A stretch of DNA of 64,000 bases from an uncultured Bacteroides sp. (GTDB taxonomy: Bacteria; Bacteroidota; Bacteroidia; Bacteroidales; Bacteroidaceae), in the NCBI GenBank assembly GCA_949294185.1, contig CASFGA010000010.1, forward strand, positions 62,001 through 126,000, in the 5' to 3' direction. Position numbers and translations under genes: made by a program. Positions 8,088 through 64,000 of the stretch are shown one piece after another. The notes beneath the pieces are model-generated. The model did not search any database, was not told the DNA's origin, and saw only the letters and a program-made list of their open reading frames with translations. The stretch's first letter is position 1. Each line of letters starts with the position of its first letter.

Positions 8088-9566
8088 TTATTTGTTCAGT
8101 CTCCAGGTAAATCCGTCTTTGGTATCTTTCACTTCAAATCCCAAAGCGGCAAGATGGTCGCGTATCTTGTCACTCGTCGCCCAGTCCTTGTTGGCCTTGG
8201 CCTGCATGCGCTGTTCAAGCAGCATGTCCACCGCCTTGCTGTAGGCTTCTTCACGCGCGGCATTATTTTCCGCCTCCGTCTTCAGTCCCAGAATGTCGAA
8301 GGCAAACAGGCGGAACACCTGTTTCAGCTCTTCCAGATCCGCGGCACTGATGGTCGCCTTCCGATCGATAACCGTATTTATCATGCGTGTCGCCTCAAAA
8401 AGGTGCGAGATGACAATCGGCGTATTCAGGTCGTCGTTCATCGCCTCATAGCACTTCTCACGCAGCCCCGCCGGAGAAATGCCTTCGGTTGCCGGTGCCG
8501 GAGTGATACGCTCCAGATTCTTGATGCCTTCCATCAGGCGTTCCAGTCCTTTTTCGGCGGCCTGCAGCGCTTCGTTGCTGAAGTCCACCGTGCTGCGATA
8601 GTGCGCCTGCAGGATAAAGAAGCGGATGGTCATCGGCGAATAAGGCTGTGTGAGCAGACTGTTGGATCCGGCGAAGAATTCGTCTAATGTAATGAAGTTT
8701 CCCAACGACTTTCCCATCTTCTGCCCGTTGATGGTAATCATATTGTTGTGCATCCAGTAGCGCACCATGTCATGTCCCATCGCGGCGACACTCTGTGCTA
8801 TCTCGCATTCATGGTGAGGAAAAATCAAGTCCATGCCGCCGCCGTGGATGTCGAAATGCTCACCCAGATATTTCCGTCCCATCGCCGTACATTCGCAGTG
8901 CCATCCCGGGAATCCGTCGCTCCATGGAGACGGCCACCGCATAATGTGTTCCGGCTGCGCGCACTTCCAAAGCGCGAAGTCGGCAGGGTTATGCTTCTCC
9001 TCCTGTCCGTCCAGCTCGCGGGTTGTATTCAGCACATCGTCCAGATTGCGCCCCGAAAGCTTGCCGTAATGGTGGTCTTTGTTGTATTTCGCCACATCAA
9101 AATACACCGATCCCTGACTCTCGTAGGCGTATCCGTGGTCCAGAATCTCCTTTACAAGCTGTATCTGCTCGATGATGTGCCCTGAAGCGTGCGGTTCGAT
9201 GCTCGGCGGCAGCACGTTGAGCGCGTCCATCGCCTTGTGGTAACGGATAAGATAGTGCTGCACCACCTCCATCGGCTCCAGTTGCTCCAGCCGGGCTTTC
9301 TTGGCAATCTTGTCTTCGCCGTCGTCGGCATCGTGCTCCAGATGTCCCACATCGGTGATATTGCGCACGTAACGCACCTTATACCCCAGATGGTTCAGGT
9401 AACGGAACAGTATGTCGAAGGTTATTGCGGGGCGCGCATGGCCCAAATGAGCGTCGCCATATACCGTAGGCCCGCATACATACATCCCCACGTGCGGAGC
9501 ATGGAGCGGAACGAACGCTTCCTTCTTGCGGGTCAGCGTATTGTAAATGATCAGTCTGTTTTCCAT
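8088..9566 (-). CDS. cysS: Cysteine--tRNA ligase
   Basis: 492 residues, full length for CysRS. It charges tRNA-Cys with cysteine using ATP in the cytoplasm. The class I signatures are intact: the zinc ligand Cys31 in [14 protein letters not shown] at residues 40-43 (HIGH box), the second zinc cluster around [16 protein letters not shown], and the KMSKS-type loop KMGKS near residue 283. The C-terminal anticodon region ends with [13 protein letters not shown]. The start ATG at 9566 fits the family N-terminus. It is a stand-alone housekeeping gene between the SusCD operon and the NVEALA regulator, with its own terminator. Confidence 0.98.
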
Positions 9567-9602
9567 AAGCCAATATCTTTTTAGTGAGGCAAAGTTATAA
9601 CT

Positions 9603-10661
9603 TTATTTCATAGGCACAGCGCAGAGACACAAGTTTTTTAGGATTTCCTGCCCTACTGCCAGCCGGAAGAAATCCGGTTCATCGCCCACGAGGGTGCATT
9701 GCGGAAATTCCTTCAATACTTTCCGCAGATAGTGGATGTGGCCATCAATGCGGTTGTTCAGCACGGCAGAATTCGTCCGCCCTATTTCATCCGGCCAGAG
9801 CGCACGGCTTATTTCCCCGCGCGACACCCGGTGCTCCGGACTTTCCATCAGCATGTCCATAATCTGGAATCCCGTGTTGCGGAGCTTTACCGACTTCCCG
9901 CCGACCTGCATGCACTGGCTCACGGCATCCAGATGAATGGCTTCCCGCACCGGGTCGAAGACCTCCTCCACCGGAGGCGCGGGCAAGACGGGTTCCTCCA
10001 CCAGTGGAACTTCCTTTTTCCTCCTTATCCGCCACAAGGCAAGTGAGGCAAACACGGCATACAAGGCGGCAATCGCCCACACTTTCCCGTCGGCATGCCG
10101 CCATATCACCGCCGGCGGACATTCCACCCATGCCTGTATGCACGCCGTATTCTTTATGTCAAGCGCGTGAACTTTTGAGCAAATCGCCCCTTTGCAGCTT
10201 ACAGAATCGTTTCCGCTGTATTGCCGACCGTCTTCATAACGGTAAACAATGCCCGTCTGACTTACATCCGCCTTTTCCTTCATCTTGTCCTTAAACAAGG
10301 CATTAAATTGGTCGGGGTTTATAGGGCGGCATTGAGCCAATATATATTGTGCGGCCAGCTGATCAGCTAAATGCTCATCAATACTATCTTCTAAGGTAAT
10401 AATTTCTGTTCCATTTACAGTAGAAATCTTTATCTCATTGACTTTCTTTCCTGTCGGCAATGTCTGACCTTTTATTTCAATAGCATTCCGCTGATGAAAA
10501 TCAATTTCTACTACTTCCTTTAATATGTCATCCGCAATTTCCCGTAAGTTATCTTTCCCCGACATATAAAGAAGATAAACCAGAAGCATCCCTCCAACAC
10601 CAAGCAAAACAATAAGCTCCAGTTTCTTGTCCTTAATCTTAAAAACATTTTTCATAAGCAT
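9603..10661 (-). CDS. Membrane-anchored OmpR-type winged-helix regulator of the NVEALA locus
   Basis: About 352 residues from the ATG at 10661, chosen because a GGAAAG motif lies 6 bases upstream; the open frame extends further upstream with an unlikely start, and 10655 is an alternative. Architecture: cytoplasmic N-tail, membrane helix 1 (about 14-33, LIVLLGVGGMLLVYLLY), a periplasmic domain of about 160 residues with five cysteines (SCKGAICS, ACIQAWVEC), membrane helix 2 (about 194-210), a proline-rich linker, and a C-terminal cytoplasmic Trans_reg_C winged helix (about 238-337) with the typical SRALWP, NRIDGHIHYLRKVL and LVG segments. It resembles ToxR/CadC in principle but with the DNA-binding domain at the C-terminus. 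It is divergent from the NVEALA peptide genes, so it most likely senses an envelope signal and controls them. There is no receiver domain and no kinase nearby. Confidence 0.75.
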   Translation of the reverse strand: MLMKNVFKIKDKKLELIVLLGVGGMLLVYLLYMSGKDNLREIADDILKEVVEIDFHQRNAIEIKGQTLPTGKKVNEIKISTVNGTEIITLEDSIDEHLADQLAAQYILAQCRPINPDQFNALFKDKMKEKADVSQTGIVYRYEDGRQYSGNDSVSCKGAICSKVHALDIKNTACIQAWVECPPAVIWRHADGKVWAIAALYAVFASLALWRIRRKKEVPLVEEPVLPAPPVEEVFDPVREAIHLDAVSQCMQVGGKSVKLRNTGFQIMDMLMESPEHRVSRGEISRALWPDEIGRTNSAVLNNRIDGHIHYLRKVLKEFPQCTLVGDEPDFFRLAVGQEILKNLCLCAVPMK

Positions 10662-10744
10662 TCGTTTCTTTCCACAAAAATAACAGAAAATGCAAATATC
10701 ATCCAACATTATGACAAAATAGTCCAAAAATTAATCTTCTTAGA

Positions 10745-10752
10745 CAAAACTA
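10745..10752 (-). promoter_or_regulatory. Putative -7 box for the winged-helix regulator
   Basis: TAGTTTTG on the minus strand matches TAnnTTTG, about 84 bases upstream of the regulator start and back to back with the opposite-strand box at 10788. No good -33 element is visible. Confidence 0.35.
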
Positions 10753-10762
10753 AGGACTTTCA

Positions 10763-10795
10763 TTGAGCTTATTTGGATTTGAGTCTCTACTTTTG
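10763..10795 (+). promoter_or_regulatory. Putative promoter of the NVEALA operon
   Basis: A TACTTTTG -7 box at 10788-10795 (consensus TAnnTTTG) is preceded by a weak -33 TTG at 10763. The predicted transcript would begin only about 13 bases before the first NVEALA start codon. Confidence 0.45.
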
Positions 10796-10814
10796 TCACA
10801 AAACAAGACGAATT

Positions 10815-11033
10815 ATGAAAAAGAAAATAAGCTTATCAGTTTTACTATTAGTTGTGACCTTATCAATCGTTGTTCTAAAAAAAGCAAGCCAAGAAACAAC
10901 CGATGAAAATCCCATAGTAGCAGCCAATGTGGAAGCACTTGCCACAGGCGAAGGCTCTTTAATAAAATGTTACAGTATTGGTTGTTTGATCTGCCCTGTC
11001 AATGGAGTAAAAGTTGCATATATAAAAGAATAA
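10815..11033 (+). CDS. NVEALA family small exported peptide 1
   Basis: 72 residues from the ATG at 10815, chosen because it gives a canonical KKK-plus-hydrophobic signal segment (MKKKISLSVLLLVVTLSIVV); the longer upstream frame lacks this. The motif NVEALA is present at about residues 38-43 (AANVEALATGE), which defines the Bacteroidales NVEALA family (Pfam PF14055). The short C-terminal tail has three cysteines (KCYSIGCLICP). The molecular function of the family is not established. It is the first gene of the plus-strand unit, facing the membrane-anchored regulator, and is followed 63 bases later by a second NVEALA gene. Secretion or periplasmic release is inferred from the N-terminal segment. 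Confidence 0.85.
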   Translation: MKKKISLSVLLLVVTLSIVVLKKASQETTDENPIVAANVEALATGEGSLIKCYSIGCLICPVNGVKVAYIKE

Positions 11034-11043
11034 CAAAACAAAG

Positions 11044-11057
11044 TAGAACCGGTTCTA
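11044..11057. promoter_or_regulatory. 14-bp perfect palindrome between the two NVEALA genes
   Basis: TAGAACCGGTTCTA is perfectly self-complementary and lies 10 bases after the first NVEALA stop codon. It could be a dimeric-protein binding site, or, because it is followed by TTTT, a weak hairpin terminator or attenuator (TAGAA-CCGG-TTCTA). Confidence 0.4.
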
Positions 11058-11096
11058 TTTTAAATATTAAATTAACCATTAAAAAAGACATTCAAG

Positions 11097-11333
11097 ATGA
11101 AAAAACTAATTAGAATGACGCTCGTAACAGCATTCGCCTTTGCTGCGGGTTATAGCGTATACCAATCTCAAAAGGAAGTAACCTTACCAGACTTAATATT
11201 GGAAAATGTTGAAGCTCTAGCAAGAAGTGAAATAGAAAATTATCACGGCTTCTTCCTTGACCACAAATCAAACGGCTGCAATGTTTGCGAACGAGGCAGT
11301 GGAATTTGCAATGTACACAGTCAAGGATGTTAA
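11097..11333 (+). CDS. NVEALA family small exported peptide 2
   Basis: 78 residues starting MKKLIRMTLVTAFAFAAGYSVY, a signal-like or membrane-anchoring segment. The family motif appears as ENVEALARSE at about residues 37-46. The tail carries four cysteines in a compact pattern (GCNVCERGSGICNVHSQGC), ending on Cys78. It differs from peptide 1 outside the motif, so the pair looks like diverged paralogues rather than a recent duplication. Function is unknown. A strong hairpin follows the stop codon and separates it from the propeller lipoprotein genes. Confidence 0.85.
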   Translation: MKKLIRMTLVTAFAFAAGYSVYQSQKEVTLPDLILENVEALARSEIENYHGFFLDHKSNGCNVCERGSGICNVHSQGC

Positions 11334-11341
11334 CATCATTT

Positions 11342-11377
11342 ATAGTGCTAAAGCAAGCAAACTTGCTTTAGCACTAT
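11342..11377 (+). terminator. 16-bp perfect hairpin after the NVEALA genes
   Basis: ATAGTGCTAAAGCAAG pairs perfectly with CTTGCTTTAGCACTAT around a 4-base loop (CAAA), nine bases after the second NVEALA stop. No T-run follows, so it may be an mRNA-stabilising or processing hairpin or a partial terminator that keeps peptide expression higher than the downstream lipoproteins. Confidence 0.55.
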
Positions 11378-11402
11378 CCACACACAATGCTTTATAAATA
11401 GA

Positions 11403-12623
11403 ATGAAAAAAATATATTGGTTTATTGTTGGTCTATTACTTTGCTTTACCGCTTGTAATAAAAACGATAAAGAAATGGGATTCTCTGCCGGAGTTCCAGT
11501 CGTAAAAATATCTGCTGACAAGGGAGGTGTGCTTAATCTATCCGACTTTGCAGATTCCATCGAGATCATCCCGTTGGAGACAAGGGATGACAATCTGATT
11601 GGGTGGATTCCGCGTATCCTTTCCACCGATTCCCACTACTATATCGTGGCGGCAAGCGGATGGCATTCCAAGAAGCTGCTCGTGTTCGACAAACGGGGAA
11701 ACTTCATCCGCCAGATAAGCAAAGAAGGGGGAGGCCCTGAAGAATATGTCGATTTGAGGGACATCGCGCTTGTGGGGGATACGCTGATAAAGCTTTCGGC
11801 CGTATACAACATGCTGAACTTCGATACCTGCGGCACCTTCCGGTCGAGCAGAAAGCAGCGTGACACCCCAAAAGAAATCTGCCACTTCAAAGGGAAAACC
11901 TTGTCTTACAGCAGCGGCTCCCGATTCAGAGAGAACCAACTGCTGACTTTGATAGACAATCAGGATATTCTTGTCCGAGATTTTTTCCCTGTATCCGATA
12001 CCGAAGCCAAAGTGAGCGATGCCTTTTCGCGCGAAGCCGCCTTTACTCCCGGCGACAGCCTCTGTTATTTCAATCCTCCGCTCAGCAACCGGATATACGG
12101 AATTGATGTGGAAAACGACTGCAAGACTTCACTCCGCTATCAGATTGACTATGGAAACAAGAACTTATCGTGGGATGTATTCGGGGAAGACGGCGATGCG
12201 AGCACCTGGGGAGATGTGCTAAAGCGGGGAAAGAACTATCTGGCCGTATCTGCCATATTGGATTTGGGCAATCATCTCATTGTCAACTCCACGGACAAGG
12301 AATACAACGGATATTTCTCCATTTATTCCAAACGGAGCGGCAGGGTGATGACCGGACAGTGTATCAAAGATGATGTCTTTTTCAGAGGCAATCTACTGAG
12401 ACTAAAGGCGATGGATACCCCTCATTACCGGGACGGCAACCGGTTGGTATGGGTAATAAAGCCGGAATTCCTGCTGAACGGCTGCGAAAGCTACCGCAAA
12501 CTGCTTGGCGAACCCAAATGGCGCGTCTTTTGCGAACGCTATCCGCATCTGGTGAAAGTATGCGACCGGCTGAAAGAAGATTCTAACCCAATATTAATAA
12601 GAGTAAAACTCAAAGATTTCTGA
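11403..12623 (+). CDS. Six-bladed beta-propeller lipoprotein
   Basis: 406 residues. Lipoprotein signal peptide with lipobox FTAC (Cys18). After it comes a short strand region with LNLSDFADSIEIIPLET, then repeated blades. The blade LLVFDKRGNFIRQISKEGGGPEEYVDLRDIAL carries the G-x-G-P-x-E-[FY] signature seen in Bacteroidales six-bladed propeller lipoproteins (the 6-bladed beta-propeller/TolB-like Pfam families), and the same signature recurs in the next two propeller genes. It is probably anchored at the inner face of the outer membrane or the surface. Its stop is three bases before the thioredoxin-like gene, so the two are co-transcribed. Ligand and role are unknown. Confidence 0.8.
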   Translation: MKKIYWFIVGLLLCFTACNKNDKEMGFSAGVPVVKISADKGGVLNLSDFADSIEIIPLETRDDNLIGWIPRILSTDSHYYIVAASGWHSKKLLVFDKRGNFIRQISKEGGGPEEYVDLRDIALVGDTLIKLSAVYNMLNFDTCGTFRSSRKQRDTPKEICHFKGKTLSYSSGSRFRENQLLTLIDNQDILVRDFFPVSDTEAKVSDAFSREAAFTPGDSLCYFNPPLSNRIYGIDVENDCKTSLRYQIDYGNKNLSWDVFGEDGDASTWGDVLKRGKNYLAVSAILDLGNHLIVNSTDKEYNGYFSIYSKRSGRVMTGQCIKDDVFFRGNLLRLKAMDTPHYRDGNRLVWVIKPEFLLNGCESYRKLLGEPKWRVFCERYPHLVKVCDRLKEDSNPILIRVKLKDF

Positions 12624-12625
12624 CA

Positions 12626-13225
12626 ATGAAAAAGACTTCATACTTCATAATCATTTTTTTAATAACAGTTACGGGAATTTTCTGCTACTGGCATCTCCAT
12701 TTAGAAAAAAAGAAATTGATAGATTTAGTTATTCACCAACGAGAAACCTCAGAACAACTCTTCTTTAATTTAAAGGAACTATCGAAATTGCAATATTATG
12801 GTGAAGGGAAACAAATTAAAAATATACCAGCATATACATTAAGCGGTGATACTGTAAATTTACACCAGCTACTTAATACAAGTAAATTTGTTGTATATAT
12901 TTCTGAATACGGATGTTCTCTTTGTTATTCTCCTTTTTTGAACTATTTAAAAGATTATCCGCTTTTAGAAGAAAGAATGATAATCCTTGCAGGTTTTGAA
13001 AATCAACGAGACTTCAAAATTTATATTGAAAATTTCGAATTTCATTGTCCTATATATAGAATTAATACAAACTTAAATATCTATCCAGACTATAATGATT
13101 ATGCTTTGGCCTGCATAATATCAAAAGATATGGTCATTAACAACCTATTGTTATTAGATAAAAGTAATAAAGAATACATAGAAGATTATTTAAGAATAAC
13201 AGAACAAAAAATGCAATTTAAATGA
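12626..13225 (+). CDS. Thioredoxin-like protein with CxxC, AT-rich
   Basis: 199 residues: an N-terminal signal anchor (about 5-22, YFIIIFLITVTGIFCYW), a short charged helix (LHLEKKKLIDLVIHQRE), and then a region that looks like a TlpA/AhpC-type thioredoxin fold. Strand FVVYISEYGCSLCYSPF contains a C-S-L-C redox-type motif, followed by MIILAGFENQRDF and later NDYALACIISKD. Overall similarity to known families is weak. The gene is strikingly more AT-rich than its neighbours, with many AAA/ATA/TTA codons, which suggests separate acquisition. It starts 2 bases after the first propeller gene. A periplasmic thiol-exchange role is inferred from the CxxC. Confidence 0.65.
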   Translation: MKKTSYFIIIFLITVTGIFCYWHLHLEKKKLIDLVIHQRETSEQLFFNLKELSKLQYYGEGKQIKNIPAYTLSGDTVNLHQLLNTSKFVVYISEYGCSLCYSPFLNYLKDYPLLEERMIILAGFENQRDFKIYIENFEFHCPIYRINTNLNIYPDYNDYALACIISKDMVINNLLLLDKSNKEYIEDYLRITEQKMQFK

Positions 13226-13331
13226 CAGAAAAAATATTTTAAACATTAGTCAGACAAACAAGTACATTAAGCCTATACACTTTTATCTCACCATACAGAA
13301 ACAAATTCCACTAAAACTCAATTATCAAAAT

Positions 13332-14369
13332 ATGAAAACTTCGCATTACATCATTCTTTTCATCTGTCTGGCCTTGGTTTCCTGCCAGACGAACCGTCAG
13401 AAAGGCATTGACACATTCAAGGAAACGCAGGAAATAACGGATTTCGAGGTGGTCTTTACTGACAAAAGCGAGCCAGTGGGCAGCATCATCGAACTGAGGA
13501 AATGGAAAGACATACTGATTGCAGCACACTATGGCGACGAATACCGCTTTTCCTTCATCGATGCCAATACCGGGAAGGTGTCAAGGCGGTGGGGAAAAAT
13601 CGGAGAAGCCCCGGGAGAATTCATTGATTTCGGCATGAACTTTTCCGTCTGCGATTCTTCACTTGTCTTTCCAACGACCATGAAGAAGGAAACCAATGCG
13701 GTTTCCATACCCGCCCTATTGAGAGGGGATGAAGTGTCCGTGGAACGGGAAAGTTATCCCTATACGGCCGACTTCAGGCCCATGAAAATCCTGCCTTTGG
13801 GCGAGGAGAAGGTCGTGACCGGCTTTTTCAAATCCGGACTGTTCGGGATAATCGACTCAAACAACGCCGTGAAAGGGACTTATTCCGACTATCCTTTCGC
13901 TACCGAACTGGACGATATCTACAAGGGAACGGTATTCCAGACCTTGACTGAAACGAACGAAAAAAAGAAGCGCTTTGTCATCTCGGTCTTGGCTTCGGAC
14001 ATCTTTGAAATCTATCAGGAAGGAAAAGACGGAATCAACAGGATATACACCAGTCCGTTCATGCACGAGCCGCAAGTCAAGCAGAGCAACGGACGGTATG
14101 GCATCGACGACAATGAAAGTATCGCAGGGATATTGAACATCGCGACCTCGGACAACGCGATTTATTTAGGATACTCTCCGCTGAAATACATCGAAGCCAG
14201 TCGTCTGGACTATACCTTCGACGAAGTGTTGTGCTTCGACTGGGACGGAAATCCGCTAAAGAAATACATACTGCCTTTCCCGGTAAGCACTTTATGCGCA
14301 GACGAGGAAGCGTTGTACGGGGTCTGCAACAAAGGGGATGAGATGCTCATCTGCCGTTTCAAGCTATAA
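13332..14369 (+). CDS. Six-bladed/TolB-like propeller lipoprotein
   Basis: 345 residues. Lipoprotein signal with lipobox LVSC (Cys18). The mature protein starts with an ITDFEVVFTD strand region and contains the blade SFIDANTGKVSRRWGKIGEAPGEFIDFG with the conserved G-x-A-P-G-E-F motif. The C-terminal blade reads VLCFDWDGNPLKKYILPF. The pattern matches TolB-like six-bladed propellers found in Bacteroidales NVEALA neighbourhoods. An intergenic stretch of 106 AT-rich bases precedes it, with no convincing promoter, and a hairpin follows the stop. Function unknown. Confidence 0.8.
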   Translation: MKTSHYIILFICLALVSCQTNRQKGIDTFKETQEITDFEVVFTDKSEPVGSIIELRKWKDILIAAHYGDEYRFSFIDANTGKVSRRWGKIGEAPGEFIDFGMNFSVCDSSLVFPTTMKKETNAVSIPALLRGDEVSVERESYPYTADFRPMKILPLGEEKVVTGFFKSGLFGIIDSNNAVKGTYSDYPFATELDDIYKGTVFQTLTETNEKKKRFVISVLASDIFEIYQEGKDGINRIYTSPFMHEPQVKQSNGRYGIDDNESIAGILNIATSDNAIYLGYSPLKYIEASRLDYTFDEVLCFDWDGNPLKKYILPFPVSTLCADEEALYGVCNKGDEMLICRFKL

Positions 14370-14370
14370 A

Positions 14371-14400
14371 CACCCGGCAACAGCCGTTGCCCACAGGGTG
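14371..14400 (+). terminator. Interrupted 11-bp hairpin between propeller genes
   Basis: CACCC+GGCAAC pairs with GTTGCC+GGGTG around the loop AGCC, with a 4-base bulge (CACA). It begins one base after the stop codon and is not followed by a T-run, so it looks more like a processing or stability element than a full terminator. Confidence 0.4.
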
Positions 14401-14426
14401 AAGCCATAAAACAACCGACTTATATC

Positions 14427-15440
14427 ATGAGAAACCTGACATTACTGACCGTATTGCTGATTGTCTGCTCCTGTTCTTCCCGCCATTCATCGTCCGTCCT
14501 GTCGGATTTGGGAAATGAAATTCCGTTGGCGGCACAGGAGTATACGAACGAGATTGTCATGCCCAATCCTCTGAGCATCGCGATGGCAGAGGGAAAGCTG
14601 CTTTTGTTTCAGGGGGTAGGCGAGGATGCCATCCTGGTTGTCAACCCGAAAGACGGCACGCTGCAAGGGCGGTTCGGCCTGCGGGGCGTGGGGCCGGGAG
14701 AGTTTACCTATCCGATATACTGGGGAAGCAATGCCGACCGGAACGAGCTTTACCTCTTCGACCTGAATCTCTCCTGCCTGCGCACCTATTCCTGCCGGGA
14801 AGAAGGCGACAGCATCCGTTTCTCTTTGGAAAAGGAAAAGAGGATGGAAGCGGAAACCTCCGTCCATTCGGGCGTTGTGATAGGCGATTCGCTGTCTGTC
14901 GCCTCGGCTCTCTTCAATTCTCCCCAGCCTCTGGTGCTTTTGGACAAGAATCTGAAGCCTTCCGGCTATGTGGAAACCTTTCCGAAGCCGGGCGATTCGC
15001 CGGACTTGCTTACCTATGCAGGCGTATTTTCATCCCATGGAAAACGGTTTGTGTATGGCATGGAAAACATGGGATACCTTGCCTGCTACCTTTGTGAAGG
15101 TTCAGAGGTGCGGAAGGAATGGGAAGTTTTTCTGGAAGAACCGCGCTACAAGAGCGAAAAGCTTGACATCAACCGGCTGAAGCAAGGCTTTCTGGATGTG
15201 AGGATGACGGAAAACTACATCTTCTGCAACTACTCGGGCCAGGTTTTCTCGCCTGAAAATCCCGGATTCTTCGGCCATCACATTTTAGTGTTCAATCACC
15301 GGGGAAAGCTGGTCAAGAACTTCAAATTAGACAGAAGGATTGCACACATGACCGTGTCCCCCGATGAAAAGACCGTCTACGCTATCGCCTACGAGCCGGA
15401 TGTGAACATCGTAAGGTTTCATGTCGGCGATTTTCTGTAA
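14427..15440 (+). CDS. TolB-like propeller lipoprotein
   Basis: 337 residues. Lipoprotein signal with lipobox IVCSC (Cys15 or Cys17). It contains the blade ILVVNPKDGTLQGRFGLRGVGPGEFTYP with the G-x-G-P-G-E-F signature shared with the two upstream propellers, and a final blade HILVFNHRGKLVKNFKLDR followed by MTVSPDEKTVYAIAYEP, the classic TolB/NHL strand-turn pattern. It is the last intact gene of the locus. Function unknown; paralogy to 13332-14369 is plausible but low in sequence. Confidence 0.8.
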   Translation: MRNLTLLTVLLIVCSCSSRHSSSVLSDLGNEIPLAAQEYTNEIVMPNPLSIAMAEGKLLLFQGVGEDAILVVNPKDGTLQGRFGLRGVGPGEFTYPIYWGSNADRNELYLFDLNLSCLRTYSCREEGDSIRFSLEKEKRMEAETSVHSGVVIGDSLSVASALFNSPQPLVLLDKNLKPSGYVETFPKPGDSPDLLTYAGVFSSHGKRFVYGMENMGYLACYLCEGSEVRKEWEVFLEEPRYKSEKLDINRLKQGFLDVRMTENYIFCNYSGQVFSPENPGFFGHHILVFNHRGKLVKNFKLDRRIAHMTVSPDEKTVYAIAYEPDVNIVRFHVGDFL

Positions 15441-61624: not shown

Positions 61625-64000
61625 CCCGTTCACCGCGTCCGCTGGCGGAAACCACCTCACGGATAAGTTCGTTCAGCCCGTCCGCCTTCATCAGCTGCTC
61701 CAACGTGATGTGCATACGCCAGTGCCAATAGTTGTGCGGGTCGGCAGGAACATTGATGCGCTCGGCCTTGACATCCGGATTGCGCAAAGTCTCGTCCATC
61801 GAAGTCCAGTCTTGCCATGTCAGGATGCACAGCATAGAAGGGCTCTCCAGATGCTGCATGATGACTTCCCGGCACAGCCATGCAGGAGCGTGTTCGGGCA
61901 CCTCCCCCCAATGATGAAGCTCATTGTGATAAAAACGCTCGGTAAGAGCCGCATCTTCCTCCCACCATCCGCGCAGTGTAGACATGTCATGCGTGCCGAT
62001 GGTACATACGGAATGGAAAGGATATCCGCTCACGCACCCGAATTCCTGCCCCATGGCTTTCGGCATGCGCTGTATCTCAAGCGACAGAATCTGTAGCTCG
62101 TTCATCACCCACGGCACACAATCGGGCACCATGCCCAAGTCTTCCCCACAGACCAACATGGGAGTGGACTGTGTGAGTACGGGCAGTTTCTTCATCGCCT
62201 CGTGATACCAGAACTCGTTATGCCGTTGATAATAATAATGATTATAAAGATGGTTGAAGGCTTCCTGCTCCTGCGACGACAGTTGCTTGAAGATATAATC
62301 AGTCTGTACGGCAATGCGCGGATGATAAAGCTCCGGATTCTTCCGGTCGGGGACAAACAAGACATCGCTGATCAAAGCATAAAGGTTTTCTTTCAAGCGC
62401 AGACTTTCGGCATCGGTCTTACCTTCAAAAAAAGCTTCCACCTTGCGCTGCGTGTCAAACTCCGGACGCATTTCATACAGATCATGGTGAAGCGGACGCA
62501 CGAACGTATGGCGAACGTAACCGCTCTGCTCGCCAAAAACCGTATTCAGAATGTATTCATTGATAAACGGCCGAAGCATATCCGCACGGAAATTCAAGCC
62601 GAAACTACGTATTTCATCGGCACTCATCGGAAGAGCCGGAACAAACTGCCCCAACAGCCCGTGAACGCTATGCTCGGGTATCTCCCATATCCGGAAGAAA
62701 CCCAATATATGGTCAATGCGATAAGCTGTGAAATATTCAGCCATCTTTGCGAAACGGCGACGCCACCACAGATAATTGTCTTTTTCCATCACCTCCCAGT
62801 CATAGGTAGGAAATCCCCAGTTCTGTCCGTTTGCAGAAAAAGCATCCGGAGGTGCTCCCGCCTGCCCGTTCAAATTGAAATAATAAGGTTCCACCCATGA
62901 CTCTACGCTGCTGCGGCTGATGCCGATAGGAATATCGCCCTTTAGAATGACACCTTTCTGACGGGCATGACAAGCGACAGACAACAGCTGCACGTGAAGC
63001 TGATACTGAAGATAATAATAGAATCCGATATACGGAAACGCTTCGCTATCGGGGGAACAGAGCTGCTCGACTTCATCCCTGTCGTATTTGCCATAGGCTT
63101 TCCACGAACGGAAGTCAGGCGTTCCATACAAATCACGCAAATAACTGAAAGCTGCATACGGACGCAACCAATGCTCATTGTCCACAAAAAATTCAATGAA
63201 CGGCTTCGACTGCAGGACTTTCTCCCCTTCCTGACGATAGATTTCCCTCAAATAAGCACGTTTCAAGCGGTTGACTTCCTCATAGTCCACTGCCGGTAAA
63301 GCGTTCAGACGCACCCGCTTTTCTTCAAAGTCTTTAGCCAACTTCCAGTCGGACAACGAAGGAAGCTGACGAAGGTCGATGAACATGGGATGAAAAGCAT
63401 AGATAGAAATACTGTTATAAGGGTAAGAGTCAGTCCATGTCCCGCTCATTGTCGTATCATTAATCGGCAAAATCTGTACAACATGCTGGCCGGTAGCAGC
63501 CGCCCAAGTGACAAATGTCTCCAAATCACCAAAGTCGCCTACACCGAAACTTCCCTCCGAACGCAAAGAAAAGACAGGAATGGCCGTTCCTGCAAACTTA
63601 CGCGCCGGAAGAGCAAAAAAGACTTCCGTATCCATAGGCAGATAAGTCTCCCCTCGTTGCAGCGGCTGAATATGAAACACCCGGTTCGGACAAGATTCCC
63701 ACTCTTCCACAGCACCGCTTTCTGCATTTATCGCAACAAATTTATATTCAAACGGAGATTCTAAAGACGAAGCATCCAATGTAATATGCCATACATTCGG
63801 CTGAACTTCCTGCATCCGCAAAGGTCTGCAATATTCCCAATTTCCCAAAGCGTTACAGCTTCCGATAATTCCCAATGCCTGATTGTGACAACTTAATTCC
63901 GGACAAAGCGCCCTGAAAGTAATGCAACTTCCGACACCATCAGAAAGCTTATTGTAAGATTGAGGCTGATAGATGCCATTGAATGCGGAACTATACCGAT
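61611..64000 (-). CDS. malQ: 4-alpha-glucanotransferase (amylomaltase) with N-terminal CBM20, N-terminus cut by window edge
   Basis: The frame is open to base 64000 with no stop, so about 796 residues are visible and the start lies outside; an internal TTG near 63875 is not the true start. The visible N-terminal part is starch-binding CBM20-like (LGIIGSCNALGNWEYCRPL ... NVWHITLDAS ... FEYKFVAIN). The GH77 barrel has FSLRSEGSFGVGDFGDL, the nucleophile in AYRIDHILGFFRIW, the acid/base in LVCGEDLGMVP, and the third Asp in TIGTHDMSTLRGWW. It transfers alpha-1,4-glucan chains in maltodextrin/glycogen metabolism. Its coding end overlaps the queE end by 14 bases. Confidence 0.95.
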   Translation of the reverse strand, partial: RYSSAFNGIYQPQSYNKLSDGVGSCITFRALCPELSCHNQALGIIGSCNALGNWEYCRPLRMQEVQPNVWHITLDASSLESPFEYKFVAINAESGAVEEWESCPNRVFHIQPLQRGETYLPMDTEVFFALPARKFAGTAIPVFSLRSEGSFGVGDFGDLETFVTWAAATGQHVVQILPINDTTMSGTWTDSYPYNSISIYAFHPMFIDLRQLPSLSDWKLAKDFEEKRVRLNALPAVDYEEVNRLKRAYLREIYRQEGEKVLQSKPFIEFFVDNEHWLRPYAAFSYLRDLYGTPDFRSWKAYGKYDRDEVEQLCSPDSEAFPYIGFYYYLQYQLHVQLLSVACHARQKGVILKGDIPIGISRSSVESWVEPYYFNLNGQAGAPPDAFSANGQNWGFPTYDWEVMEKDNYLWWRRRFAKMAEYFTAYRIDHILGFFRIWEIPEHSVHGLLGQFVPALPMSADEIRSFGLNFRADMLRPFINEYILNTVFGEQSGYVRHTFVRPLHHDLYEMRPEFDTQRKVEAFFEGKTDAESLRLKENLYALISDVLFVPDRKNPELYHPRIAVQTDYIFKQLSSQEQEAFNHLYNHYYYQRHNEFWYHEAMKKLPVLTQSTPMLVCGEDLGMVPDCVPWVMNELQILSLEIQRMPKAMGQEFGCVSGYPFHSVCTIGTHDMSTLRGWWEEDAALTERFYHNELHHWGEVPEHAPAWLCREVIMQHLESPSMLCILTWQDWTSMDETLRNPDVKAERINVPADPHNYWHWRMHITLEQLMKADGLNELIREVVSASGRGERAKEN

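Follow-up and report, generated by a model that had tools for sequence, protein, structure and literature searches.

A candidate system of variable NVEALA peptides and cognate six-bladed propeller lipoproteins, linked to a membrane regulator, in gut Bacteroidales

Polymorphic toxin/immunity cassettes such as those of Rhs and CdiA combine a constant N-terminal part, an exchangeable C-terminal tail and a partner encoded directly downstream; tails are swapped by recombination in the constant part, and orphan partners are found downstream (PMC3482391, PMC10539506). In Gram-positive quorum-regulated class II bacteriocin loci, the small exported peptides share a leader, their operon includes a partner gene, and a further peptide goes with the regulatory genes (PMC3546714). 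Bacteroidetocins are Bacteroidales peptides with four cysteines, and their locus includes a thiol oxidoreductase (PMC6671954). Membrane regulators of the ToxR/CadC type join an OmpR-type winged helix to a membrane and a periplasmic domain. Here we describe a locus that shares some of these features. It lies in a stretch of 64,000 nucleotides (the window; positions 62,001 to 126,000 of contig CASFGA010000010.1, from an uncultured Bacteroides sp.) and encodes two NVEALA peptides, a membrane regulator (REG), three propeller lipoproteins and a thioredoxin-like CxxC protein. The candidate regulatory peptide has the leader type of the other peptides and adjoins the sensor. Both NVEALA proteins and DUF5128/TolB-like propellers are common function-less annotations in gut Bacteroidales. 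As a preliminary description of the locus had said, NVEALA is known only as a family without an assigned function; its Pfam entry is PF14055.

Pairing of variable tails with propellers

The searches covered the family (201 genomes), the genus (61), the order (392) and the phylum (392), and the comparison took in about 105 NVEALA loci, drawn from over 60 genomes of Bacteroidales. A first set held 84 loci from the family, the window included, and a second set 20 loci from other families of the order; profiles were built from the window and its paralogues, and the gene maps also cover further stretches of the window's own genome. With regulator-linked peptides (see below) and contig ends left out, 162 NVEALA genes could be scored for adjacency. 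A propeller gene lies directly downstream on the same strand in 148 of them (141 full-length, 7 short), while six of the other 14 stand within tandem NVEALA runs and eight have no propeller. The second set, which comes nearly all from other families and to which one more locus from the window's genome was added, has a propeller next after 36 of 43 NVEALA genes. Because the same peptide-then-propeller order is found again in about 100 loci, the arrangement in the window is far beyond chance.

To relate the parts of the peptides to their propellers, 125 adjacent pairs were compared between different genomes. The correlation of similarities was r=0.72 for tail and propeller, r=0.10 for leader and propeller and r=0.10 for tail and leader. 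Re-pairing the propellers within genomes gave a mean r of 0.11 and a maximum of 0.35 over 1000 trials, none of which reached the observed value. Leaders are similar within a genome and tails across genomes. Where two tails are similar, the propeller that goes with one usually ranks first in similarity to that of the other among about 120. Four second-set tails resemble a first-set tail at a similarity of 0.35 or more, and their propellers rank 2, 4, 1 and 1 of 125. Pair identity is kept down to a propeller similarity of 0.15-0.3 and between families. Window propeller 1 is a case in point, as its nearest relatives, in loci L022 and L112, come after the same tail type as that of NVEALA-2; the L112 tail, CKICERGSGTCNIHDQEPC, one of the four just mentioned, matches NVEALA-2, and the L112 propeller is closest to window propeller 1. 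On these comparisons, each variable tail has its own cognate propeller, a six-bladed lipoprotein whose gene comes next downstream. The interpretation given in the preliminary description, partly supported overall, had overlooked this main point.

Three further arrangements were seen. At L053:9410-11239, five tandem NVEALA genes with related yet diversified tails are followed by a single propeller. A second pair of the window type, in genome G062 (L022:7680-10200), has a seemingly frameshifted tail and a broken thioredoxin-like gene, with the propeller intact. At C6 of the window's genome (L104:2753-9265), a C39-peptidase ABC transporter and an HlyD-like protein have two PF17170 propellers as neighbours, and no GG-leader peptide is visible there. 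The propellers may also serve another type of peptide export.

At the thresholds used, all NVEALA matches, those of the phylum sample included, fall within the Bacteroidales. The distribution is patchy, with NVEALA genes in 34 of 61 genomes of the genus and 21 of 392 in the order sample. The window's genome, probably that of a Phocaeicola, has seven over the cut-off in three loci, and one more with a weaker score is found at C9. It also has some 22 propeller loci, about 16 of them within its NVEALA loci. A compact unit at C9 (L103:6612-9355) consists of a divergent NVEALA peptide (NIEVVG variant), a propeller, a thioredoxin-like protein and an S26 signal peptidase. Across the genus the regulator and NVEALA genes are associated: 24 genomes have both, 10 have NVEALA only, 4 the regulator only and 23 neither (p=1.3e-5). 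The preliminary description had made its proposal depend on co-occurrence of regulator, peptides, propellers and CxxC protein across Bacteroidales genomes, and such co-occurrence was found. We found no paper naming NVEALA in the open-access literature (subscription papers were outside this search), which suggests that the peptide-propeller-regulator system is undescribed. New in this analysis are the NVEALA-propeller pairing and the regulator-linked peptide class. In B. thetaiotaomicron, BT0662 (O-antigen ligase family) and BT0664 (six-bladed propeller) are encoded near each other, and PMC10434189 lists both as reduced when iron is limiting, with p-values of 0.13 and 0.35. Their region is possibly an NVEALA locus in a laboratory strain.

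Cassette exchange and orphan propellers

L018 is the window locus in a close relative (genome G196), where the flanking DNA is 90-91% identical. Identity runs to window position 11232, three to four codons past the NVEALA motif, and resumes at 13314, 18 bases before propeller 2. Between these flanks, the window has 2081 bp comprising a tail, propeller 1 and the thioredoxin-like gene, and L018 has 163 unrelated bp with a different tail. This L018-type tail stands before a relative of propeller 2 in both L018 and L070. Since the L018 flanks match and its tail type precedes relatives of propeller 2, it is most likely that a new tail-propeller-oxidoreductase cassette displaced the old tail in the window, orphaning propeller 2. 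No remnant of the old tail was seen between the thioredoxin-like gene and propeller 2. By sequence, tail and propeller move together as a cassette, with recombination at the end of the conserved leader.

Propellers with no peptide directly upstream are common (92 of 241). For 37 of these orphans, the run in which they stand has a pair further upstream, and for 52, another genome has a paired relative at a similarity of 0.35 or more. The relation is asymmetric, with 92 of 241 propellers lacking a peptide versus 8 of 162 peptides lacking any propeller in their run. Rhs tails and their immunity genes are described as showing the same pattern of displacement and orphans (PMC10539506).

The features of the window locus are collected in Table 1. 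Both peptides contain the NVEALA motif and pass the curated PF14055 cut-off of 27 bits (29.2 and 54.5 bits), and all three propellers have a lipobox. The CxxC protein has no Pfam match; profile comparison aligns it, CxxC included, with thioredoxin-like lipoproteins of related loci (hhalign E=1.3e-6), which themselves match StoA (E=8e-4). TAnnTTTG is the Bacteroidales -7 promoter consensus. Every part named in the preliminary description was found, and its cysteine counts, three and four in the peptides and five in the periplasmic domain of the regulator, were correct. Its interval of 10661-15440 needs a small correction, as the regulator faces this plus-strand interval yet sits just outside it.

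Table 1. Positions, strands and supporting evidence for features of the NVEALA locus in the window
Feature	Position	Strand	Basis
REG, membrane one-component regulator: transmembrane segment, periplasmic sensor domain, transmembrane segment, C-terminal OmpR/PhoB-type winged helix	9603..10655	-	Trans_reg_C E=1e-8
Candidate REG operator, pair of 11-bp direct repeats CTTAGACAAAA CTAAGGACTTT	10739..10760	.	Period strong family-wide, weak in window alone
Bacteroidales -7 promoter element TAnnTTTG (TACTTTTG), 27 bases 5' of NVEALA-1	10788..10795	+	Sequence
NVEALA-1, regulator-linked peptide class, 3 Cys, tail KCYSIGCLICPVNGVKVAYIKE	10815..11033	+	PF14055; class motif of regulator-adjacent peptides
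NVEALA-2, variable peptide, 4 Cys, tail NYHGFFLDHKSNGCNVCERGSGICNVHSQGC	11097..11333	+	PF14055 E=9e-15; tail type also in L022, L112
Probable exchanged cassette: NVEALA-2 tail, propeller 1, thioredoxin-like gene	11233..13313	+	Comparison with L018
Propeller 1, PF17170 lipoprotein, cognate of NVEALA-2	11403..12623	+	PF17170 E=2e-35; closest propellers in L022, L112
Membrane-anchored thioredoxin-like CxxC protein	12626..13225	+	hhalign to oxidoreductases of related loci
Propeller 2, PF15869 lipoprotein, probable orphaned partner of displaced tail	13332..14369	+	Closest to L018, L070 propellers
Propeller 3, PF15869 lipoprotein; no known peptide for its subfamily	14427..15440	+	Nearest relatives also unpaired

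The regulator, its peptide class and precursor maturation

The AlphaFold model of REG has a predicted local distance difference test score (pLDDT) of 89, and its predicted winged helix matches VanR, SaeR and PhoB at Z 10.7-12.4. The sensor domain is predicted with a pLDDT of 90; compared with the PDB, it gave nothing above Z 6.5, and weak kinase-sensor rows (KinD, DraK) were mixed among ribosomal proteins. A single-protein scan with the regulator matched only an uncultured Phocaeicola, 83% identical. Near regulator genes, cysS is found in three Phocaeicola genomes (window 8088-10655; L079; G227 C21:110509-114099), and in the closest relative, G196, the NVEALA locus and cysS are on different contigs. 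The cysS neighbourhood is possibly an insertion hot spot.

Peptides encoded beside the regulator are set apart by their tail, C-x-G-x-G-[SDN]-x-x-C-P...KV. The strict pattern occurs in 23 of 35 regulator-adjacent peptides versus 1 of 151 others, and by eye the tail is recognisable in about 32 of the 35; in the second set it is present in four of five. Their propellers are also distinct, as 20 of 32 propellers beside the regulator or its peptides fall within one clade of 22 (support 93). The sole regulator-like tail away from a regulator, in L037, is followed by a propeller that joins this clade (support 99). NVEALA-1 of the window belongs to the regulator-linked class. The window does not contain its propeller, but the genome encodes a member of the clade in its C4 locus (L012:3329-4426). 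Sensor similarity correlates with linked-tail similarity (r=0.43, reached in 0 of 1000 permutations); the leader r is 0.30, and therefore shared ancestry contributes to this correlation. The preliminary description had proposed that the regulator reads an exported peptide, and the existence of a separate class of peptides that goes with the regulator lends this idea support. In the divergent promoter regions (22 homologous intergenic regions), direct repeats recur with an 11-bp period (z=11.7 versus shuffles, other lags at most 2.3), and no such repeats occur upstream of other NVEALA genes (z=0.8). A spacing of 11 bp is that of PhoB/OmpR repeats.

The same description had read the shared cysteines as a redox- or disulfide-linked signal. 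The regulator gave this reading no support: the best cysteine column among 20 aligned regulators is held by 6 and the next by 4. Redox sensing through regulator cysteines is rejected as a family feature, since no cysteine column is conserved. Tails have 2-6 cysteines, in even number in 78%, and the cysteines fit better with disulfide-stabilised tails and a dedicated oxidoreductase than with a redox sensor. At C9 of the window's genome (L102:6850-9185), a regulator paralogue with no NVEALA neighbour is divergent to a TlpA-like CxxC protein.

NVEALA precursors consist of a Sec-type, genome-specific leader and an exchangeable tail, usually of 30-45 residues. The NVEALA motif is consistent with a site for signal peptidase I, with Ala at position 4 in 176 of 176 peptides and only A, S, G, T or C at position 6. 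In 93 of the 176, a Gln stands 12 residues before the motif; under the Bacteroidetes Q-rule, such a Gln marks an alternative or first cleavage site (PMC5837995). Recurrent in the loci covered from 47 genomes are genes for S26 signal peptidases (35 genomes), Wzy_C-TPR ligases (27), transglutaminase-like lipoproteins (31) and thioredoxin-DUF1573 lipoproteins (39), and the first three often adjoin one another. None of these three is present in the window locus; the C4 locus of the same genome has all of them. The open reading frame maps and profiles of the loci reveal no recurrent exporter. Surface export of Bacteroidales lipoproteins is signalled by a lipobox followed by acidic K-(D/E)2 or Q-A-(D/E)2 (PMC12632263). 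An adjacent acidic pair is present in just 7 of 135 propellers with a recognised lipobox and in none of the three in the window, and because the export signals are missing, a role for the propellers as surface receptors is less likely.

Interpretation and relation to known systems

Taken together, the comparisons establish, at the level of sequence, an architecture of polymorphic exported peptides, cognate propellers, cassette exchange, orphans and a dedicated regulator module. As to function, we infer that the variable peptides act on other cells, that propellers neutralise them and that the regulator-linked peptide induces the operon. We favour, at a little short of even confidence, a polymorphic system of peptides and cognate propellers that most likely resembles bacteriocins or kin recognition, in which the propellers confer immunity and which is switched on through the regulator-linked peptide. 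Signal peptidase would cut the leader at the AxA within NVEALA (many of the loci encode S26 enzymes), and thioredoxin-like partners would set the peptide disulfides. The regulator-linked peptide would be an inducer or co-sensor, read by the periplasmic domain of REG alone or together with its propeller, and the winged helix would bind the 11-bp repeats and control the operon. Variable peptides would be exported effectors in competition or kin recognition among Bacteroidales; propellers, probably periplasm-facing, would bind and neutralise them, and orphan propellers would protect against the peptides of neighbours. It is possible, and we say so somewhat more tentatively, that this is a Bacteroidales envelope system of a new category, in which a constant peptide-propeller pair feeds a membrane transcription factor and swappable disulfide-stabilised peptides with their propellers mediate strain-specific recognition or killing.

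Several observations weigh against the bacteriocin- or kin-recognition-like reading. The tails are near neutral and polar, unlike membrane-lytic peptides, and no outer-membrane exporter is recognisable. A detectable regulator is absent from 10 of the 34 NVEALA genomes of the genus, and the window repeat pair alone is not significant (96 of 300 shuffles). Seven peptides adjoin a short propeller, some of which draft genomes may account for. Lastly, tail and propeller are neighbours, and therefore linkage contributes to their correlation. Linkage alone accounts for part of the tail-propeller match, but the pairs hold together even where they have diverged deeply. That linkage is the whole explanation, with tail and propeller co-inherited and no interaction between them, would agree with their adjacency and with recombination in the conserved leader. 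We consider it very improbable given the pair identity at low propeller similarity and between families, and given L037, where a regulator-like tail away from any regulator is still followed by a propeller of the regulator-linked clade.

The peptides might instead be ligands and the propellers periplasmic receptors, in peptide-receptor signalling or self-recognition without killing, with the variable pairs as strain-specific signals. All pairs would then work as the regulator-linked pair does. In favour of such signalling, a membrane transcription factor goes with one class of peptide and propeller, and the tails are neutral, folded-looking mini-proteins. However, a regulator is present only for the regulator-linked class, leaving the other pairs with no visible output, and propellers kept without a peptide, together with the displacement pattern, are typical of immunity genes (PMC10539506); we find signalling without killing unlikely. 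A structural complex of the envelope, in which the propeller needs the peptide as an obligate small subunit or plug and the peptide varies under surface selection by phages or hosts, would account for the tight tail-propeller match, and the Bacteroidota BAM complex does include a six-bladed propeller (PMC12578637). The many propellers without a peptide, the general lack of a surface export signal and the single propeller behind the L053 peptide run make this explanation decidedly doubtful. The least probable, in our estimate, is an envelope switch in which the regulator reads the thiol state of the peptide through its own cysteines. Cysteines are present in peptide and regulator, thiol oxidoreductases in most loci, and the window's genome has a regulator paralogue whose gene is divergent to that of a TlpA-like protein; however, the regulator family has no conserved cysteine, and the co-variation of tail and propeller makes no reference to the regulator.

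As there is a matching propeller for each variable peptide and one class is tied to a regulator, both families can be tested at once. If the pairs are effector and immunity protein, they would give gut Bacteroidales a Sec-dependent arsenal that is new and whose partner fold had been noted as missing among immunity proteins; if signal and receptor, they would be a peptide communication system in a Gram-negative group. In either case this would be the first use of a six-bladed propeller lipoprotein as the cognate immunity protein or receptor of a small exported peptide.

Bacteroidetocins differ in their 15-residue GG leader, their peptidase-ABC transporter and their lack of an immunity protein (PMC6671954), and identity with these or other C39-exported peptides is rejected because the leader is wrong and the loci have no exporter. 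REG differs from ToxR/CadC-type regulators in that its winged helix is C-terminal, after the second transmembrane segment, and in that its sensor shows only weak kinase-sensor resemblance. In contrast to class II bacteriocin loci, NVEALA loci have Sec-type leaders and neither a GG leader nor an ABC/C39 exporter, a single membrane regulator takes the place of a histidine kinase and response regulator, and the partner is a propeller lipoprotein. Unlike Rhs and CdiA, NVEALA proteins are small peptides with a Sec leader rather than large proteins and have no known toxin domain; for the two window peptides, Pfam and NCBIfam give only the NVEALA model over the cut-off. Immunity proteins were noted to include no beta-propellers (PMC3482391). 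We file the system under neither Rhs/Cdi nor class II bacteriocins, because of this absence of propeller folds from immunity proteins and because no homology is recognisable. Its genetic logic nevertheless matches that of both Rhs/Cdi effector-immunity cassettes and class II bacteriocin loci.

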